From assembly GCA_018434685.1 (NCBI GenBank), contig JAHDOV010000020.1, positions 1 through 48,969 on the forward strand: a DNA stretch of 48,969 nucleotides, in the 5' to 3' direction. Below the pieces are notes generated by a model. The model saw only the letters and a program-made list of their open reading frames with translations, searched no databases and was not told the origin of the DNA. The translations under genes were made by a program, and so were the position numbers. Positions 28,089 to 41,339 of the stretch are shown piece after piece (within the stretch, counting starts at the first letter, position 1; the number at the start of each line of letters is the position of its first letter). Source of the DNA: Deltaproteobacteria bacterium (lineage in GTDB: Bacteria > Desulfobacterota > Desulfomonilia > UBA1062).

Positions 28089-31000
28089 TCAGAACCCGAC
28101 AATCTTCCACAGCCCGTCCTCATCCATCTCAAACAACAGGTAGAAGGAATACTCCCTCTCGTCTCTGAATATCCTGATGTCGTATTCAACAGATCTTCCC
28201 ATCATGCTGATAAACTGAACATCTTCCAGTTCCTGGGCCAGGTGTATTCTCTGTGATTCTGATAACGAGCTGAATGCATTATATTTGAGTTCTCTTTTCC
28301 TGTTGCAGAAACAGCTGGCCGCAGCAACCACGTCATTCTGCACCAGCGCTGTCCTCATCCGTTCCCACTTCGTGTCGAGCAGTGCTTCCAGATCGCCTTT
28401 GTCCAGGGCCTGAACAGTAACGACATCAAGAAATTCACCGCTGTCGGTCATCACCTGTGCCGTGAAACTGTAGACGCCTTGTGAATCGATCCTCACTCTA
28501 TACTCGCCATCTTCCCCGTTTTCGAGAAACTCAATCTGTCCTGAACCCATAGGGGTAATCGTTGCGATATCAGGGCTGAATGCCGGCTCCAGCCGTAAGG
28601 TGATCTCCAGCGGGCAGACCCCGATCTCGTCACTGGCTGACAAGGTAATGTAGGGACCGGCAACCTCGGAATATACGATGACCCGTGCTCCTGCCGTATG
28701 CCCATAAGCATCTGTTGCCTGCACGATGATGGAATTATCTCCTTCAGTCAGGTCAATGTGATTCGCCACGAACTGATCTTGATAAACCAGGGCAGGCACA
28801 CCATTTACCGTTACGCCGACCTCGCCGGTCAAGGTATGGTTTATGGTACCCCTCACCAGGGTATCCGGCCGGAAGATGCTGGAACCTTCTGCCGGGTAGG
28901 TAACCGTGATAAGGGGGTCCATTACCGTGATGGTTACCGAGTCCGATACTGAACCACCAGGGCCTGTTGCGGTAATGGTGTAGGTGGTTGTCTCGGTTGG
29001 GGAGACAACAGCAGACCCATTCGCACTGACGGTTCCCACTGAGTTGTCTATGCTTATGCTCTGGCCGTTCTCAGAGGTCCAGTGCAGTTCTGCTGTTTCT
29101 CCTGTGATGATCTCCGATACATCAGACGAGATATTTACCGAAGGTCTCTGATACACTGTAACGGTGACTTCTTCCGAAACCGTCCCGCCGGGCCCTGCAG
29201 CCGTGACGGTGTATGTCGTGGTAACATCAGGCGAGAGGCTCACCAGTCCGTTTGCCTCGACAGTTCCGATACCGGGTTCAATGGATACGGTCTCAGCATT
29301 ATTCGATGTCCAGCTCAGGCCCGCAGCCTCGCCCATGATTATCACAGCAGGTTCCAGTGAGAGTTCAACCTCAGGAGGCTGATGCACCGTTATGGAAACC
29401 GACGCTGTCTCAGTTCCACCGAGGCCTGTTGCCGTGATTGTATAGCTCGTTGTTTCAGAAGGTGAAACAACCATGGATCCTACTGGAACGACCCTGCCGA
29501 TGCTGTTGTCTATCCACGCATGGTAAGTGTCGGAACATTCCCACAGGAGCTCACAGGTACCTCCGGCAGCAATCTCGAGATGATCCACCGAAAAATCTAT
29601 GCCCGGCGGCTGAAAGACAACGAGCGTCTGGCTCGAAGAAACTCTCTGGCCATCGCTGCTGGTCCCCGTGATCGTATAGACTGTTGTCTCTTCAGAAAAC
29701 ACCTCTATGGATCCGCTTTCAGTTACAGAACCAATGCCGTTATCGATCGACAGAGATGATGCATTGGTCGAATCCCAGCTCAGGACGAAGGATTCTCCGG
29801 AAACTACGGCATCGACGCTGGTTGAGATATCAACACCCAGATACGTATCGATGTCCTGAACGGTCGCACCTCCTGACCCAATCTGTATCGAAACTGTTTC
29901 CGGAGAAAAGACATACCCTTCTCTCGATGCACCGATGGAATACTCCCCTTCAGGAACAAACAGCGTATACCTGCCCTGCTGGTCGGTCAGGGTTGTCCTA
30001 GCGAGAGCCTCTCCTCGAATAGTGACCTTGACCCCTTCAATCCCGGTGCCATTCGATATGACTCTCCCGGAGACCTTACTGTTCATTGCGGCGATAAAAT
30101 GGCCGCACGTATAGGGCCAGTTCATCTCACCCTGGACAGTGTCGACGACTGTATTCGTCAGGGTTTCGATGACATGGACACTGTTGGAGAGTGCATCGGG
30201 GGCATAGAGATATGTCCCATCGGGGGTAAAAGACATGCCCGAGAGAACTTCACCGAGGGACATCATCGCTGCCACCTCGTTGGTTGCAGTATCGATGGTG
30301 AAAAGATAACCCATCTCGGTCGAAACATATGCCCTGGACCCATCGGGGCTGATTGCAAAAGACCGTGGAGAAGCACTCATCCCCGGCAGGAAGAATATAT
30401 CGATAGTGTCGATTATTGTGTTTGTGGCTGTATCAACAACCCAGACGCAGTCATACGAGGTGACATACAGAACCGAGCCGTCGGGCGACACCTCGACCTC
30501 GAGAGGAGAGGACCCCTCTGCGAGCGATATATTGTCAATGACATCAAGGCTGGTTGCATCTAAAACAGAGACACAACCACTGCGTATTTTTGCCAGATAC
30601 ACACGAGAGCCGTCCGGACTCACGGCAATGCCGTGAGGATAATATTCAGCCTCAATGCCGGCCCTGATTTCATTCGAAAGGGTATCGATCACGCTAAGCT
30701 CGTTTTCATACATGGACGCGGCATACAGGGTTGAACCGTCAGGACTCACTGCAACAGTTGTGGCAGGCACCTCGATGGTTCCAACTACCGTATTGTCGGC
30801 CGCATCGATGATGTAAACCCCTCCTCCCATGCATGCCACATACACCTGTGTGCCGTCCGGGCTGACCGCGACACCGTAGGGTTCTGAACCGACCTCCACC
30901 CCTGCAACAACCGTGTTTGAGGACAGATCTATCACCGACACATCGGTGCCCTGGTTATTGGTGATGTATGCATATGAAGAGCCGGCTACAGACGCTTCAT

Positions 31001-34000
31001 TCACCACCACGATCACACTGTCTGTAGCTGTCCCTCCGGGGCCGGTAACGGTAATGGTATACGTTGTTGTCCCTGATGGAGAAATCTCTTGTGTATCGAT
31101 GACATTCACATATCCGATACCCCGGTCAATGACTGCAGTATCAGCGTTGGTCGAAGTCCATGCCAGGCTTGTAGCTTCACCCGCAACAATCGGATTCGGG
31201 TCGGCTGAAATGCTGACTGTCGGCGGCTCATAGACCGTTACGGTAACACTGTCGGTGACAGCACCTCCCGGTCCTGATGCCGAGATGGTATATGTTGTGG
31301 TGCTCTCCGGCGATACCGGGCTCGATCCGCCCGGTTCGACCGGGCCGATACCATTATCGATTTCCAGGGTCTCGGCATGAGTTGATGTCCAGCTCAGGGA
31401 GCTCGACGTCCCTGCTATGATAGCATCCGGGGCAGCCGTTATACTCACGGCAGGGGCCTGATATACGGTGATCGTTACGCTGTCTGTCGCCGATCCGCCA
31501 TCGCCGGAGGCGGTTATCGTATATGTTGTTGTACGCGTTGGGGAAACCAGGGATGTTCCGCTGACATCAACACTCCCCACTCCGTTATCAATAAACACTT
31601 CTGATGCGTTTTCCGTTATCCACGAGAGAGAAGATGCTCCTCCGGAGACAATTGCCTCGGGATCGGCCGATAGAGTGACAGTGGGCACTGGCAAGACAAT
31701 AACCGTCACGTCGTCGGTCGCCGTTCCTGCCTGCCCGTGAGCCACGACTGTGTATGTTGTTGTTACAGCAGGGCTTACCACTGAGGAGCCGTTTAAACCA
31801 ACTGTCCCAATCCTATTATCAATGCTCACACTATCCGCATCTGTGGAAGACCATGAAAGGATCGTTGGTTCACCGGCAATTATAGTGTTCGGGTCTGCCC
31901 AGATACTCACGGTGGGGGGCTGAATCACCGTGACGGTCACGCTGTCAACTGCCGATCCATCAGGTGTTACTGTTGTGGCCCTATAGGTGGTGGTCATGGC
32001 AGGAGAAACACTGAGCATGCCTTCGGGACCGACATTTCCTACACCATTGTCAATAGCCACGGCATCGGTATTCTCTGAAGCCCAGGTAAGCACCGATGAA
32101 TCTCCCGCTGCTATCGTCATGGGTTCGGCCGAGATATCAACAACAGGCGGGTGCAGAACCACAACCGTGACGCTGTCGTATACCGTCATGCCCGGTCCGT
32201 GCGCAGAACCAGTATACGTTGTTGTGATCAGGGGGGATACAATTGTGGATCCCTGCGGTTCAACGGTTCCAATGCCATTGTCGATGCTTACAGACTCTGC
32301 ATTCTCAGATGTCCAGGATACAGCGGATGATGATCCTACTATTATGGTGACCGGATCTGCTGAGATGGCAATGTGGGGAACAGGTTCAACCGCAACAGTC
32401 ACACTGTCTGTGGCTGTTCCGCATGGTCCTGTTGCCGTGATCGTGTAGGTAGTCGTGCTCGATGGCGATATCGCTGTCGCTCCGTTCGGCTCTGCGCTGA
32501 TATCCCCGATGCCGTTATCAATAGTCAGGGCAAGGACGTTCGAGGACGTCCAGGTGAGTAAGGTATCCACGCCATCGACAATGGTATCCTGCAGTGCATA
32601 TATCTTGACGCTTGGAGGATAACACACCGTGACCGTACAGCTGTCGGTCGATGTCCCGCCAGGTCCCACGGCACTGATTGTATAGGTAGTTGTGACACCA
32701 GGACTTGTACTGGTCGATCCATTGAGTTCTACTGAACCGATATCATTATCAATGCTCACCGTATCTGCATCCGAAGAGGTCCAGGCCAGTATCGAGGCAT
32801 CGCCTGCGAGTATCATACTGGGGTCAGCCGAAATACTCACCGTGGGCAGCTTGTGTATGGTTGCAGAGGTGCTGTCTTCAGCAAAGCCTCCCCGGCCGTC
32901 GCTTACTGTCAGCATCACGGTGTAGGTATCTGCCTCGGCATAGGCATGAACCGGTGTTGAGCCGGTCCCGGTGGCACCGTCTCCAAAATCCCATAGAAAA
33001 CTCAACCCGTCGCTGTCAGGGTCAGCAGACAATGTGCCATCAAACTGGATCTCATGGCCGGTAAGTCCTGTGTACGGACCGCCCGCATCGGCAACAGGCG
33101 GCTGATTCAACGGTGGAAGCTCTCCCACCACCAGGGAGTAACCCTGGTCGGCAGTGCCGCCGCTTCCATCGGAAACATGAACTTCAACGTCATATGACCC
33201 TGGCTGTGAAGGCGTCCAGGCGATCAGCCCGGTAGAGCTGTTTATCTCCATGCCGGGTGGAGCCGCCACGAGGCTATAGGTCAAGGCATTGCCGTTCGGA
33301 TCTGTAGCATTGACATCGTAGTTGTACACGATGCCTGCCATGCCGTGCTCAATGGGTGAGGAATAGATCACCGGTGCATAGTTCACCAGGCTGCGTGTCC
33401 TGACCGCGGTCGGGTGAGAACTCACCACGTTCGAGTAGCACCAGGTTCCGCCGGAGAGTGCACCGACCACGTACAGGTAGGTATTCTCGTTCGTTACGGT
33501 ATCGTCGAGGTGGGTGGAGTACGTGGATGTTGTTTCCGCAATCTTGACAAAGGCTCCGGGGTCTGACTCGTGAGAACGGTATACATCGTACCGCTCTGTT
33601 CCCTCGATATTTGTCCAGACAAGCTGAACCAGGCCTCCCTTTGCCCTGGGAGTGATGGAAAAACACGGGGTGACGGTAACGAGTGCTGTATCCACCACGG
33701 AGCGGGCAGTCTCATCACTGACGATGAGCGATGCCCTATACGAACCCTCGGGAACAGCAACCAGGGGACCTGCCCCCTGGGCTTCCGGGAACGGGCCAAA
33801 CCACTGGTAGATTATCGAATCCCCGTCAGGATCTGATGAGAGCGTTCCGTCGAGAACCAGCTGCCCGCAGAGAAGCTCGTCCTTGGAAACTGTTACATCC
33901 GCTCCGGCATCTGCAACTGGCATTTCAGCCCGGGCAACCCCGGCAAGACAGGCCAGGAAAAGGAAAAATGCCACCAGGGTACCAGGGAAAAACCGGAATC

Positions 34001-34043
34001 CGGACGCAGATATACCTCTAGACTGCTTACAAGTGTCATTCAT
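28089..34043 (-). CDS. Giant exported PKD / Ig-like repeat / beta-propeller protein
   Basis: 1984 residues. A signal peptide (about 1-40, ending GVARA) is followed by a PKD-like domain (42-130), a fibronectin III-like domain (about 130-210), an Ig/cadherin-like domain of the putative-Ig type (about 218-305) and a canonical PKD (about 313-395). Eight Ig-like repeats of about 77 residues (398-1013) share a core SWTSxNAxSVSIDNGIGxV and an end TTTYTITATGPGGTATDSV. A YVTN-type beta-propeller (about 1013-1318, VSPDGTxVYVA blades), a carboxypeptidase regulatory-like domain (about 1319-1404), four more Ig repeats (to about 1708) and a C-terminal domain of about 270 residues follow. GAGGAGGT precedes the ATG. 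It is probably a cell-surface or extracellular adhesion/matrix protein; no membrane anchor or sorting signal is visible. Confidence 0.9.
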   Translation of the reverse strand: MNDTCKQSRGISASGFRFFPGTLVAFFLFLACLAGVARAEMPVADAGADVTVSKDELLCGQLVLDGTLSSDPDGDSIIYQWFGPFPEAQGAGPLVAVPEGSYRASLIVSDETARSVVDTALVTVTPCFSITPRAKGGLVQLVWTNIEGTERYDVYRSHESDPGAFVKIAETTSTYSTHLDDTVTNENTYLYVVGALSGGTWCYSNVVSSHPTAVRTRSLVNYAPVIYSSPIEHGMAGIVYNYDVNATDPNGNALTYSLVAAPPGMEINSSTGLIAWTPSQPGSYDVEVHVSDGSGGTADQGYSLVVGELPPLNQPPVADAGGPYTGLTGHEIQFDGTLSADPDSDGLSFLWDFGDGATGTGSTPVHAYAEADTYTVMLTVSDGRGGFAEDSTSATIHKLPTVSISADPSMILAGDASILAWTSSDADTVSIDNDIGSVELNGSTSTSPGVTTTYTISAVGPGGTSTDSCTVTVCYPPSVKIYALQDTIVDGVDTLLTWTSSNVLALTIDNGIGDISAEPNGATAISPSSTTTYTITATGPCGTATDSVTVAVEPVPHIAISADPVTIIVGSSSAVSWTSENAESVSIDNGIGTVEPQGSTIVSPLITTTYTGSAHGPGMTVYDSVTVVVLHPPVVDISAEPMTIAAGDSSVLTWASENTDAVAIDNGVGNVGPEGMLSVSPAMTTTYRATTVTPDGSAVDSVTVTVIQPPTVSIWADPNTIIAGEPTILSWSSTDADSVSIDNRIGTVGLNGSSVVSPAVTTTYTVVAHGQAGTATDDVTVIVLPVPTVTLSADPEAIVSGGASSLSWITENASEVFIDNGVGSVDVSGTSLVSPTRTTTYTITASGDGGSATDSVTITVYQAPAVSITAAPDAIIAGTSSSLSWTSTHAETLEIDNGIGPVEPGGSSPVSPESTTTYTISASGPGGAVTDSVTVTVYEPPTVSISADPNPIVAGEATSLAWTSTNADTAVIDRGIGYVNVIDTQEISPSGTTTYTITVTGPGGTATDSVIVVVNEASVAGSSYAYITNNQGTDVSVIDLSSNTVVAGVEVGSEPYGVAVSPDGTQVYVACMGGGVYIIDAADNTVVGTIEVPATTVAVSPDGSTLYAASMYENELSVIDTLSNEIRAGIEAEYYPHGIAVSPDGSRVYLAKIRSGCVSVLDATSLDVIDNISLAEGSSPLEVEVSPDGSVLYVTSYDCVWVVDTATNTIIDTIDIFFLPGMSASPRSFAISPDGSRAYVSTEMGYLFTIDTATNEVAAMMSLGEVLSGMSFTPDGTYLYAPDALSNSVHVIETLTNTVVDTVQGEMNWPYTCGHFIAAMNSKVSGRVISNGTGIEGVKVTIRGEALARTTLTDQQGRYTLFVPEGEYSIGASREGYVFSPETVSIQIGSGGATVQDIDTYLGVDISTSVDAVVSGESFVLSWDSTNASSLSIDNGIGSVTESGSIEVFSEETTVYTITGTSSDGQRVSSSQTLVVFQPPGIDFSVDHLEIAAGGTCELLWECSDTYHAWIDNSIGRVVPVGSMVVSPSETTSYTITATGLGGTETASVSITVHQPPEVELSLEPAVIIMGEAAGLSWTSNNAETVSIEPGIGTVEANGLVSLSPDVTTTYTVTAAGPGGTVSEEVTVTVYQRPSVNISSDVSEIITGETAELHWTSENGQSISIDNSVGTVSANGSAVVSPTETTTYTITATGPGGSVSDSVTITVMDPLITVTYPAEGSSIFRPDTLVRGTINHTLTGEVGVTVNGVPALVYQDQFVANHIDLTEGDNSIIVQATDAYGHTAGARVIVYSEVAGPYITLSASDEIGVCPLEITLRLEPAFSPDIATITPMGSGQIEFLENGEDGEYRVRIDSQGVYSFTAQVMTDSGEFLDVVTVQALDKGDLEALLDTKWERMRTALVQNDVVAAASCFCNRKRELKYNAFSSLSESQRIHLAQELEDVQFISMMGRSVEYDIRIFRDEREYSFYLLFEMDEDGLWKIVGF

Positions 34044-35049: not shown

Positions 35050-35530
35050 TGTCAAGCAGCTCTCCGCAGCGGCGGATCGCAGCCAGACCTACAATCTCGG
35101 TCCCAAGTAACAGGATTATCAAAATCACCCAGATTGTAGGGCAGGTTGTGAGTTCGCCCCTGGCGGACGAATTACCTGCCGATCCTGTGCCTATGTCTTC
35201 TTCTCTAGCCCTGTGTCAAGCAGCTCTCCGCCGCGGCGGATCGCAGCATGACCTACAATCTCGGTCCCACGTAACAGGATTTTCAAAATCACCCAAATTG
35301 TAGGGCAGGTTGTGAGTTCACCTTTGGCGGACGAATTACCTGCCGCTCCTGTGCCCATGTCTTCTTCTCTAGCCCTGTGTCAAGCAGCTCTCCGCCGCGG
35401 CGGATCGCAGCATGACCTACAATCATGGTCCCACGCAACAGGATTAACAAAATCATCCAAATTGTAGGGCAGGTTGTGAGTTCGCCTCTGGCGGACGAAT
35501 TACCTGCCGCTCCTGTCCGCATTTCCTGGT
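35050..35530. repeat. Three tandem copies of a 164-bp REPIN-like unit
   Basis: Units begin at 35050, 35214 and 35378, an exact 164-bp period, and are about 90% alike. Each unit holds a hairpin over the palindrome TCCGCCGCGGCGGA, then CTAC, a spacer of about 45 nt, GTAG, and a second hairpin with arms GGCAGGT and ACCTGCC, then about 35 nt of linker (CCTGTGCCTATGTCTTC-like). Hairpins flanked by GTAG/CTAC in inverted orientation define REPINs, the mobile repeats moved by RAYT transposases. More units surround the RAYT gene at 39272. The array lies between the PEP-CTERM and acyl-CoA dehydrogenase genes; the remaining spacer (34851-35049) shows only the PEP-CTERM leader. Confidence 0.85.
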
Positions 35531-37377: not shown

Positions 37378-37447
37378 GTCGCGGCTGGAAGCCGCTCCTA
37401 CAGTGACATCAGGCACATCACGATGTAGGAGCCGGTTCAGCGGCGAC
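37378..37447. repeat. REPIN of a second family, copy A
   Basis: GTCGCGGCTGGAAGCCGCTC then CTAC, a 20-nt spacer, GTAG and GAGCCGGTTCAGCGGCGACC: two hairpins in inverted orientation with CTAC/GTAG facing the spacer. This is the widespread GTAGGAGCGGCTTCAGCCGCGA type of REP and is distinct in sequence from the 164-bp units. Downstream sequence (GGAATCTCC.CCAAACG) is shared with copy B. Confidence 0.8.
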
Positions 37448-37491
37448 CGGAATCTCCTCCAAACGAAACATCACGCATAATCAGCTGTAGA

Positions 37492-37540
37492 CTGTAGGTC
37501 ATGCTGCGATCCGCCGCGGCGGAGAGCTGCTTGACATTCC
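37492..37540 (-). repeat. Single half-unit of the 164-bp repeat, reversed
   Basis: GTAGGTCATGCTGCGATCC followed by GCCGCGGCGGAGAGCTGCTTGACA is the reverse complement of the left half of the 164-bp unit, here alone between two copies of the other REPIN family. It shows that the left hairpin with its GTAG can exist separately. Confidence 0.75.
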
Positions 37541-37570
37541 AGGTGCGAAACAGGCACCTCCGCCCGAAAT

Positions 37571-37642
37571 GTCGCGGCTGAGAGCCGCTCCTACAGCGTT
37601 ATCAGCTACACATCCTCTGTAGGAGCCGGTTCAGCGGCGACC
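37571..37642. repeat. REPIN of the second family, copy B
   Basis: Same layout as copy A: GTCGCGGCTGAGAGCCGCTC-CTAC, spacer, GTAG-GAGCCGGTTCAGCGGCGACC. The spacer differs (GCGTTATCAGCTACACATC) while both hairpins are conserved. The rest of 37161-37757 holds no gene. Confidence 0.8.
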
Positions 37643-37757
37643 GGAATCTCCCCCAAACGCAACATCACGGATAATCATATGCTTGCGGGCCTCCATCATT
37701 ACAGATCAGCGCAACCTCTCTCCGTCATTTTCAAGGAACAGGGCTACTTCTTCCCGG

Positions 37758-38955: not shown

Positions 38956-39255
38956 CTGTCAAGCAGCTCTCCGCCGCGGCGGATCGCAGCGTGACCTACA
39001 ATCTCGATTTCGGATGTCAAGATTATCAAGATTACCATAACCGTAGGGCAGGTTGTGAGTTCGCCCCTGGCGGACGAATTACCTGCCGCTCCTGTGCCTA
39101 TGTCTTCGTCTCCAGCCCGGTGTCAAGCAGCTCTCCGCCGCGGCGGATCGCAGCATGACCTACAATCTCGATCCCATAGGACAAGATTACCAAGATGACC
39201 AAAACTGTAGGGCAGGTTGTGAGTTCGCCTTGGCGGATGAATTACCTGCCGCATT
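38956..39255. repeat. Two 164-165-bp REPIN-like units downstream of the RAYT gene
   Basis: Units begin at 38956 and 39121. Both hold the left hairpin with TCCGCCGCGGCGGA, CTAC, a spacer, GTAG and the GGCAGGT/ACCTGCC hairpin. The second ends about 17 bp from the RAYT stop codon, so the repeats directly abut the gene. Orientation is the same as in the 35-kb array. Confidence 0.85.
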
Positions 39256-39271
39256 CAAGCACTCAACCAGA

Positions 39272-39790
39272 TTATTCAAAATTCATCCCGTAAATATCAC
39301 CGGGCTCTTCTATTGATGCCCATTCCTTTGGATAATAGCCCCGGTCCACATATGTTCTGAATGATGACCACTGATAATCAAACGGTGACTTGAGGCGTCC
39401 GTGCTTTACCGGGTTATAATGAATATACTCGATATGCCGCTGCATATCCTCGTGATCACGAATAACATGATCCCAGAACCGTTGCTGCCAGATCCTGGTT
39501 TCTGATTCTATCCCATTATTCCTCTTGTAACGATCTGTGAATCTCACTTTTACTGCCTGCATAATCTGTGAGAAATCATGAGTGGGGCCAGGGACAATTA
39601 TCCAGTGGAAATGGTTGTCCATAATGGCATATGCAACCATTGAAAATGGTTTTGAGCCCTTTACCTCCCGCATGACCTCAAGGAGCACCTGTTTGTCTTG
39701 TTCGTCTTGAAGAAAAGGCTTGCGATTATAGCAAACAGCGGTGATGAACACAGGAGCATCGGGAATGTAAAACCTTATGATATTGCTCAT
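39272..39790 (-). CDS. REP-associated tyrosine transposase (RAYT)
   Basis: 172 residues, a single-domain Y1 HUH transposase of the IS200/IS605-related RAYT (REP-associated) type. The metal-binding HUH motif is DNHFHWII (His-x-His), and the catalytic Tyr lies in HIEYIHYNPVKHGR, the family signature. The C-terminal FDYQWSSFRTY is also conserved. It would nick and rejoin single-stranded REP hairpins next to GTAG. It is intact from an ATG preceded by AAAGGAGAT. REPIN-like units flank it on both sides (38956-39255 and 39909-40325), the expected arrangement for a resident RAYT and its repeats. Confidence 0.93.
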   Translation of the reverse strand: MSNIIRFYIPDAPVFITAVCYNRKPFLQDEQDKQVLLEVMREVKGSKPFSMVAYAIMDNHFHWIIVPGPTHDFSQIMQAVKVRFTDRYKRNNGIESETRIWQQRFWDHVIRDHEDMQRHIEYIHYNPVKHGRLKSPFDYQWSSFRTYVDRGYYPKEWASIEEPGDIYGMNFE

Positions 39791-39908
39791 GATCTCCTTT
39801 ACAATACATTGTATATAAAAATAGCACTAACAACTATCTCAACTGATATAATTATAATCTCCAAAAAGTATTGTGGTAGATCCTTGCCACACAGACAGTT
39901 CTAAAATG

Positions 39909-40325
39909 TCAAGCAGCTCGTTTCACTCGCAGCATGACCTACGATCTCGGTTCCAGATGTCAAGATTTTACAAAATTACCAGAATTGTAGGGCAGGTTGT
40001 GAGTTCGCCTTGGCGGACGAATTACCTGCCGCTCCAGCACCATTCCTGTGTCTTCGTATCAAGCCCGGTGTCAGGCAGTTTCTGTCCTGTTCCTACGTCT
40101 TCTTCTCAATCCCTGCGTCAAGCAGCTCTCCGCCGCGGCGGATCGCAGCATGACCTACGAACTCGATCCCAGGTAACAAGATTATCAAAATCATCCAAAT
40201 TGTAGGGCAGGTTGTGAGTTCGCTTCAGCGGACGAATTACCTGCCGCTCCTGTGCCTATGTCTTCGTCTCCAGCCCTGTGTCAAGCAACTCTCCGCCGCG
40301 GCGGATCGCAGCATGACCTACATCT
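39909..40325. repeat. REPIN-like units upstream of the RAYT gene
   Basis: Units begin at 39909, 40116 and 40279 (the last stops after its left hairpin). The first has lost the CCGCCGCGGCGG palindrome, replaced by CGTTTCACT, and a degenerate partial unit lies between it and the second. The right hairpin GGCAGGTTGTGAGTTCGC ... GCGGACGAATTACCTGCC and its GTAG are kept. The remaining bases to the rluD stop have no gene. Confidence 0.8.
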
Positions 40326-40382: not shown

Positions 40383-41339
40383 TCAAACACTCGCATCGAG
40401 CAAATCGATGAGCCCCTGCATATCTTCGGGAATGGGTGAGGTGAATTCCATCAACTGCCCGGTTACCGGATGGGTGATGCCCAGGAGGCAGGCATGGAGC
40501 ATCTGCCGTTCCTGGGATTTTACGTGTGCCCTGATCTGCGGGTCGATTATGCTGTTTGCCCGACCTCTTCCGCCGTATTCAGGGTCTGCCACAACAGGGT
40601 GGCCCATGTCGGAGAGATGGACCCGGATCTGGTGGGTCCGCCCGGTCTCGAGGCTCAGCTTCAGGAGGGAAAACTGCGGCCACTGTGCCAGCACCTCCCA
40701 GTTGGTGATCGCCTCCCTGCCCTGGTCCACCTTTGAGCTCATCTTCTTCCTGTTTTTGGGATGCCGGTCCATGAAGGTCTCTATACGGCCGGTGGCCTGC
40801 TCCAGGTGGCCATAGCACAGAGCCTGGTAAACCCGGGTGTGCCGGTGTTCCTTGAATGCCTGAATAAGATTGTGGTAGGCATCCTCTGTGCGGGCAACGA
40901 CCATGACGCCAGATGTCAGCTTGTCGAGCCGGTGCACGATGCCGGGGCGTTCCTCACTGCCCACCCCTGCGATCTCAGGATAGTGCTGGATGAGGGCATT
41001 CACCAGGGTCTGGTCACGGTTGCCTGCCCCGGGGTGCACGACGAGCCCGGCAGGCTTGTCGATCACGATGATCGATGCATCCTCATAGATGATATCCAGA
41101 GGGATATCGTACGGATTGAGCGTACCCGGCGCCTGCTCCTCTTTCCTGCGGACACTGACGGTCATAGCCTCTGCAAGCTTGAACGAGGGTTTTCTCGGCC
41201 TGCCGTCCACGAGCACGTCTCCCTCTGAGATCAGGAGAGCAGCTGCACTGCGAGTGGTCTGCAGATGCTGAGAGACAACAATATCGAGACGCAGGCCTGC
41301 ATCTGCCTCACCGGCGATAAACTCTATCGTTTCGGCCAC
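40383..41339 (-). CDS. rluD: Large-subunit rRNA pseudouridine synthase, RluA/RluD family
   Basis: 318 residues. An S4 RNA-binding domain (about 15-75) precedes the pseudouridine synthase domain, with YEDASIIVIDKPAGLVVHPG, the catalytic loop GIVHRLDKLTSG (catalytic Asp in HRLDK; Leu replaces the usual Asp or Glu next), and LETGRTHQIRVHLSDMGHP. Length and S4 domain fit RluD, which modifies the helix 69 region of 23S rRNA (positions 1911, 1915, 1917 in E. coli numbering). The start overlaps the patatin gene by 16 bp, indicating coupling. The exact target within the RluA family is not certain. Confidence 0.9.
   Translation of the reverse strand: MAETIEFIAGEADAGLRLDIVVSQHLQTTRSAAALLISEGDVLVDGRPRKPSFKLAEAMTVSVRRKEEQAPGTLNPYDIPLDIIYEDASIIVIDKPAGLVVHPGAGNRDQTLVNALIQHYPEIAGVGSEERPGIVHRLDKLTSGVMVVARTEDAYHNLIQAFKEHRHTRVYQALCYGHLEQATGRIETFMDRHPKNRKKMSSKVDQGREAITNWEVLAQWPQFSLLKLSLETGRTHQIRVHLSDMGHPVVADPEYGGRGRANSIIDPQIRAHVKSQERQMLHACLLGITHPVTGQLMEFTSPIPEDMQGLIDLLDASV

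Follow-up and report, generated by a model that had tools for sequence, protein, structure and literature searches.

RAYT genes are always flanked by two inverted REPs, and these can be 'dimorphic', as in E. coli, where yafM lies between Y and Z2 (Nunvar 2010, PMC2817692). The same study describes BIMEs, i.e., tandem modules with two inter-REP segments, as well as hybrid BIMEs that mix the REPs of two RAYTs, and a build-up of REPs close to a RAYT gained recently. REPINs may also be heterodimers, an accepted form that occurs in Stenotrophomonas maltophilia, where hybrid dimers make up about 10% (Di Nocera 2013, PMC3733652). Tandem GI-GIII arrays are known from P. fluorescens (Bertels and Rainey 2011, PMC3116915), and the REPtron Ma of Marinomonas sp. 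MWYL1 has two long REP types (42 and 38 nt) that are concentrated near the gene (2021 study, PMC8266576). Pairs of non-identical REPs, and tandem modules that contain two inter-REP segments, are part of how BIMEs and heterodimers are usually described (PMC2817692, PMC3733652, PMC8266576). A 'non-standard REPIN class', as suggested by the initial annotation of the locus discussed here, therefore finds no support.

We analysed a window of 48,969 nucleotides (contig JAHDOV010000020.1) from the 4.29 Mb genome of a Deltaproteobacteria bacterium. Its ORF at 39272-39790 (minus strand, 172 aa) matches Pfam Y1_Tnp and scores 140.6 bits with NF047646, the NCBIfam model of REP-associated tyrosine transposases (cut-off 80). 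The nearest solved structure is E. coli TnpAREP (PDB 4er8, E=9.6e-25). In an alignment with 4er8 and homologues, the conserved residues W101, Q102, R111 and Y122 align with E. coli W94, Q95, R104 and Y115, such that Tyr122 is the presumable catalytic residue. With a score above the REP-associated cut-off, the HUH motif H60-F-H62 and a catalytic tyrosine assigned by alignment, the ORF is, as judged by homology, a RAYT that closely resembles E. coli TnpAREP; a RAYT is what had been annotated. The gene is single-copy, i.e., the next-best match in the genome is only 25% identical.

Next to the gene we find two different hairpins in inverted orientation, with CTAC after the one (B) and GTAG before the other (D), just as initially described. 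D reads GTAGGGCAGGTTGTGAGTTCGCC...GGCGGACGAATTACCTGCC, while B, read on the minus strand, is GTAGGTCATGCTGCGATCCGCCGCGGCGGAGAGCTGCTTGAC. Folded as single-stranded DNA, D reaches -11.5 kcal/mol (z -3.35, 0/200 shuffles equally good) and B -11.6 kcal/mol (z -2.14, 5/200 shuffles equally good), so the folding check proposed along with the annotation supports both hairpins. The alignment of D with B gives an identity of 0.65-0.68, i.e., their pairs do not have the near-identical REPs of a homodimer-form REPIN. A common origin of the two gains no support from the alignment, since an identity of 0.65 is not significant (90/1000 shuffles reach the same value); their kinship is an impression given by the shared 5' arm. 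Rfam yields no match at gathering score in the window. Genome-wide pattern searches return 34 matches for B (31 forward, 3 reverse) and 7 for D, compared to 0 matches for the reversed control patterns of both, which excludes chance. All 7 D matches lie inside the window, confined to about 5 kb near the RAYT.

The D/B repeats are arranged head-to-tail with a tandem period of 164 bp (TRF), as initially reported, and flank the RAYT gene on both sides. At the gene, the array is opened by a B hairpin without preceding D (38958-38999, minus strand; B pattern search and hairpins), followed by a REPIN of the form GTAG[D]-linker-[B]CTAC with 121 bp (39043-39163; hairpins, folding and linker comparison). 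A 43-bp spacer between adjacent REPINs, which lies within the unit of the initial annotation, comes next (39164-39206; linker/spacer comparison). The following pair holds the gene itself: the RAYT fills the linker position between GTAG[D], starting at 39207, and a short-loop variant of [B]CTAC, ending at 39942 (sequence, hairpins and a slot survey of loci). This variant, upstream of the RAYT at 39908-39942 (minus strand), is an exact match to a wider GTAGGKCA... family with 38 genome matches at up to 3 mismatches. Two further D-B REPINs follow according to sequence (and, for the second, hairpins), namely one of 172 bp with a linker about 50 bp longer (39987-40158) and one of 120 bp with a paired C-G to T-A change in the D stem (40202-40321).

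The initial annotation had overlooked a second array, made up of three units (35050-35516), and an A-B copy at 37494-37594 (see below). The second array is opened by a B hairpin without preceding D (35051-35092, minus strand; B pattern search and hairpins), continues with two D-B REPINs (35136-35256 and 35300-35420; both by pairing and linker analysis) and is closed by a D hairpin without following B (35464-35508, plus strand; D pattern search). Both regions, i.e., 35050-35516 and 38957-40321, consist of head-to-tail modules with two inverted REPs and two inter-REP segments and are BIMEs in this sense. Their units are not uniform, given the short-loop B at the 5' side of the gene, one long linker and a final unit having B without D. 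Elsewhere in the window, a 1984-aa ORF (28089-34043, minus strand) shows by eye many Ig-like/PKD-like and beta-propeller-like repeats.

Outside these arrays, B is joined to other left hairpins. Among the 34 B copies, the left partner is hairpin A (GTAGGAGCGGGTTCAGCCGCGAC) in 18 cases, hairpin C (GTAGGTCGGGTTGTGAGCGCAGCGAGCTACCCGACA) in at least 5 and D in 4, while 7 were left unassigned by the script; the latter include one long-linker D-B pair, the two array-starting B of the window and some copies cut by contig ends. All but one of the A-B copies (17) are located outside the window; the remaining one is the hybrid at 37494-37594 (minus strand; pairing and hairpin analysis), in which B is combined with an A hairpin belonging to a different RAYT. 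Next to it, A/A' REP copies run in tandem with a period of 194 bp (37378-37677). A second RAYT with one in-frame TGA is encoded on contig C26 of the same genome at about 40854-41285 (L045:2855-3286). Since it has A/A' REP tandem modules of its own in both flanks (a BIME), ends that stem from two RAYT systems are probably joined in the A-B pairs. REPs of two families within one pair are also found in the hybrid BIMEs and dimers of S. maltophilia (PMC2817692, PMC3733652), but there hybrids account for about 10% of dimers, compared to 23/34 B copies in A-B or C-B pairs here. This frequent sharing of B, with A-B pairs making up about half of the B copies and B-B pairs absent among the 34, is the sole unusual feature of the finding, and a mildly unusual one. 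One might read B as an exchangeable right end that is joined to the left ends A, C and D, such that two-system elements are mobilised and hybrids outnumber parental pairs, perhaps by one RAYT that accepts foreign ends or by two acting together; we hold this idea to be speculative and give it little credence.

Which stretch is the element follows from the dispersed copies. The 23 A-B and C-B copies are similar as far as CTACA and divergent beyond, and linkers are conserved within each of the two classes. The dispersed element is thus GTAG[left REP]-linker-[B]CTAC, i.e., a normal REPIN (HH dimer) with GTAG outside, and A-B, C-B and D-B copies alike show inverted REPs, outer GTAG and a conserved linker. 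Within the window, the four ordinary D-B pairs have linkers with identities of 0.88-0.97, against a mean of 0.77 for the seven spacers. This is in accordance with the published rule of conserved HH and variable TT spacers (PMC3733652). The B-CTAC...GTAG-D unit of the initial annotation is the gap between adjacent REPINs together with its borders, i.e., a TT pair plus hairpins. A genome-wide 164-bp family was rejected, as D was found nowhere but in the window and B is paired elsewhere with other left hairpins. The absence of units elsewhere in the genome, named beforehand as an outcome that would speak against the family, is thus observed for the D-containing unit and does not hold for hairpin B.

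One may still ask whether the 164-bp block B-spacer-D was the duplicated unit, multiplied by replication slippage or recombination and not by the RAYT. The 164-bp period found by TRF agrees with this, as does the phase of the arrays: B opens 3/3 of them (35051-35092, 38958-38999, 39908-39942) and D closes 2/3. The tandem blocks are hence out of phase with the REPIN, and tandem duplication may have had other boundaries. Yet dispersed relatives carry GTAG outside and CTAC at their end, and linkers are better conserved than spacers; the block would account for the tandem phase but not for the dispersed copies. As an explanation of the repeats we consider it unlikely.

We also compared the locus with those of relatives. 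None of 23 sampled genomes of the genus and family holds a close relative of the RAYT (best match 58 bits), while relatives with 37-43% identity occur in other families and matches extend across many phyla, a pattern that fits horizontal acquisition. In 394 other genomes of the phylum, neither hairpin occurs, except for single chance matches to B with 3 mismatches in five of them. Among 80 named relatives, the flanks commonly contain REPINs whose GTAG lies outside. Of 49 loci flanked on both sides by family REPs, the window being one of them, the gene sits inside a GTAG-outside pair in 17, as it does in the window, and between complete pairs in 11, while the other 21 are of mixed type. The position of our RAYT inside a D-B pair was considered as a peculiarity and rejected, since it is the commonest arrangement of this survey (17/49). 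Unlike hairpins are frequent as well: of the 20 loci in which two or more REPIN pairs could be measured, 10 have a mean left/right hairpin identity below 0.8; the 20 include the window, for which the script also counted the hybrid pair. In two loci (L140, L155), the gene is bordered by the same two REP types that occur in the neighbouring REPINs, i.e., left and right types are fixed. The RAYT of one relative (genome G025) has a tandem array on either side (L097:1022-1487 and 2014-2336), both built of 103-bp REPIN modules with nearly symmetric hairpins.

The position of the gene exactly between GTAG[D] and [B]CTAC would also suit an autonomous IS200/IS605-like insertion sequence with unlike ends, of which the D-B pairs are internally deleted, MITE-like derivatives; IS200/IS605 elements have subterminal hairpins at their left and right ends (PMC6006769). 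This is very improbable given that the IS200 model NF033573 yields only 34.9 (cut-off 55) against the high score of the REP-associated model, that a single copy of the whole element exists with the best other genome match to its gene as distant as stated above, and that D-B linkers hold no obvious gene remnant; moreover, the literature provides no evidence of tnpAREP mobility (PMC8266576). Least credible of all is that the hairpins are kept for gene regulation, as terminators of transcription or stabilisers of mRNA, with an incidental RAYT: they are intergenic and stable, and E. coli REPs have such roles (PMC8266576), but spread by a RAYT better explains why they carry GTAG tags, are oriented in pairs, occur at unrelated loci and are missing from relatives.

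We are thus highly confident that the locus is a REPtron, i.e., a TnpAREP/RAYT gene bordered by its cognate REPs in BIME-like tandem REPIN arrays, with a left REP D unlike the right REP B. The analysis shows what the gene is, that the hairpins fold, where the elements end, how many copies exist and that linkers are conserved; cleavage, movement and the question of which RAYT acts on which REP are matters of inference, and we picture them as follows. When the region becomes single-stranded, e.g., as lagging-strand template, the RAYT would bind D and B via the GTAG at the hairpin foot. It would cut beside the hairpins and rejoin the ends, such that D-linker-B units are copied or moved. The tandem array may result from repeated local copying or from slippage between units. 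B-type ends would have been joined to C-type REPs as well as to A REPs, which have a RAYT of their own on a different contig; the resulting hybrids would then have spread. Given the confinement of D to about 5 kb, dispersal by the RAYT of the window is supported at most for B-type ends.

Among described systems, the E. coli REPtron (TnpAREP, y/z2 REPs, BIME-2) resembles the locus in its related transposase, in two unlike long REPs with irregular stems and in tandem BIMEs flanking the gene on both sides, whereas hairpin sequences, linker and host differ and REP D of the window is confined near the gene. The Marinomonas REPtron Ma shares two long REP types with different stem irregularities near the gene (PMC8266576), but its sequences differ, and B of the window is also dispersed and paired with other REPs. 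For each main feature of the finding there is a precedent, i.e., the class is already known and the arrangement is essentially ordinary. As discovery of a class it is thus of no importance. What it contributes is a further REPtron whose two REPs are unlike, from an environmental lineage, and the A-B, C-B and D-B pairs within one genome form a natural set for studying how strictly a RAYT requires that both ends of a REPIN carry its own hairpins.
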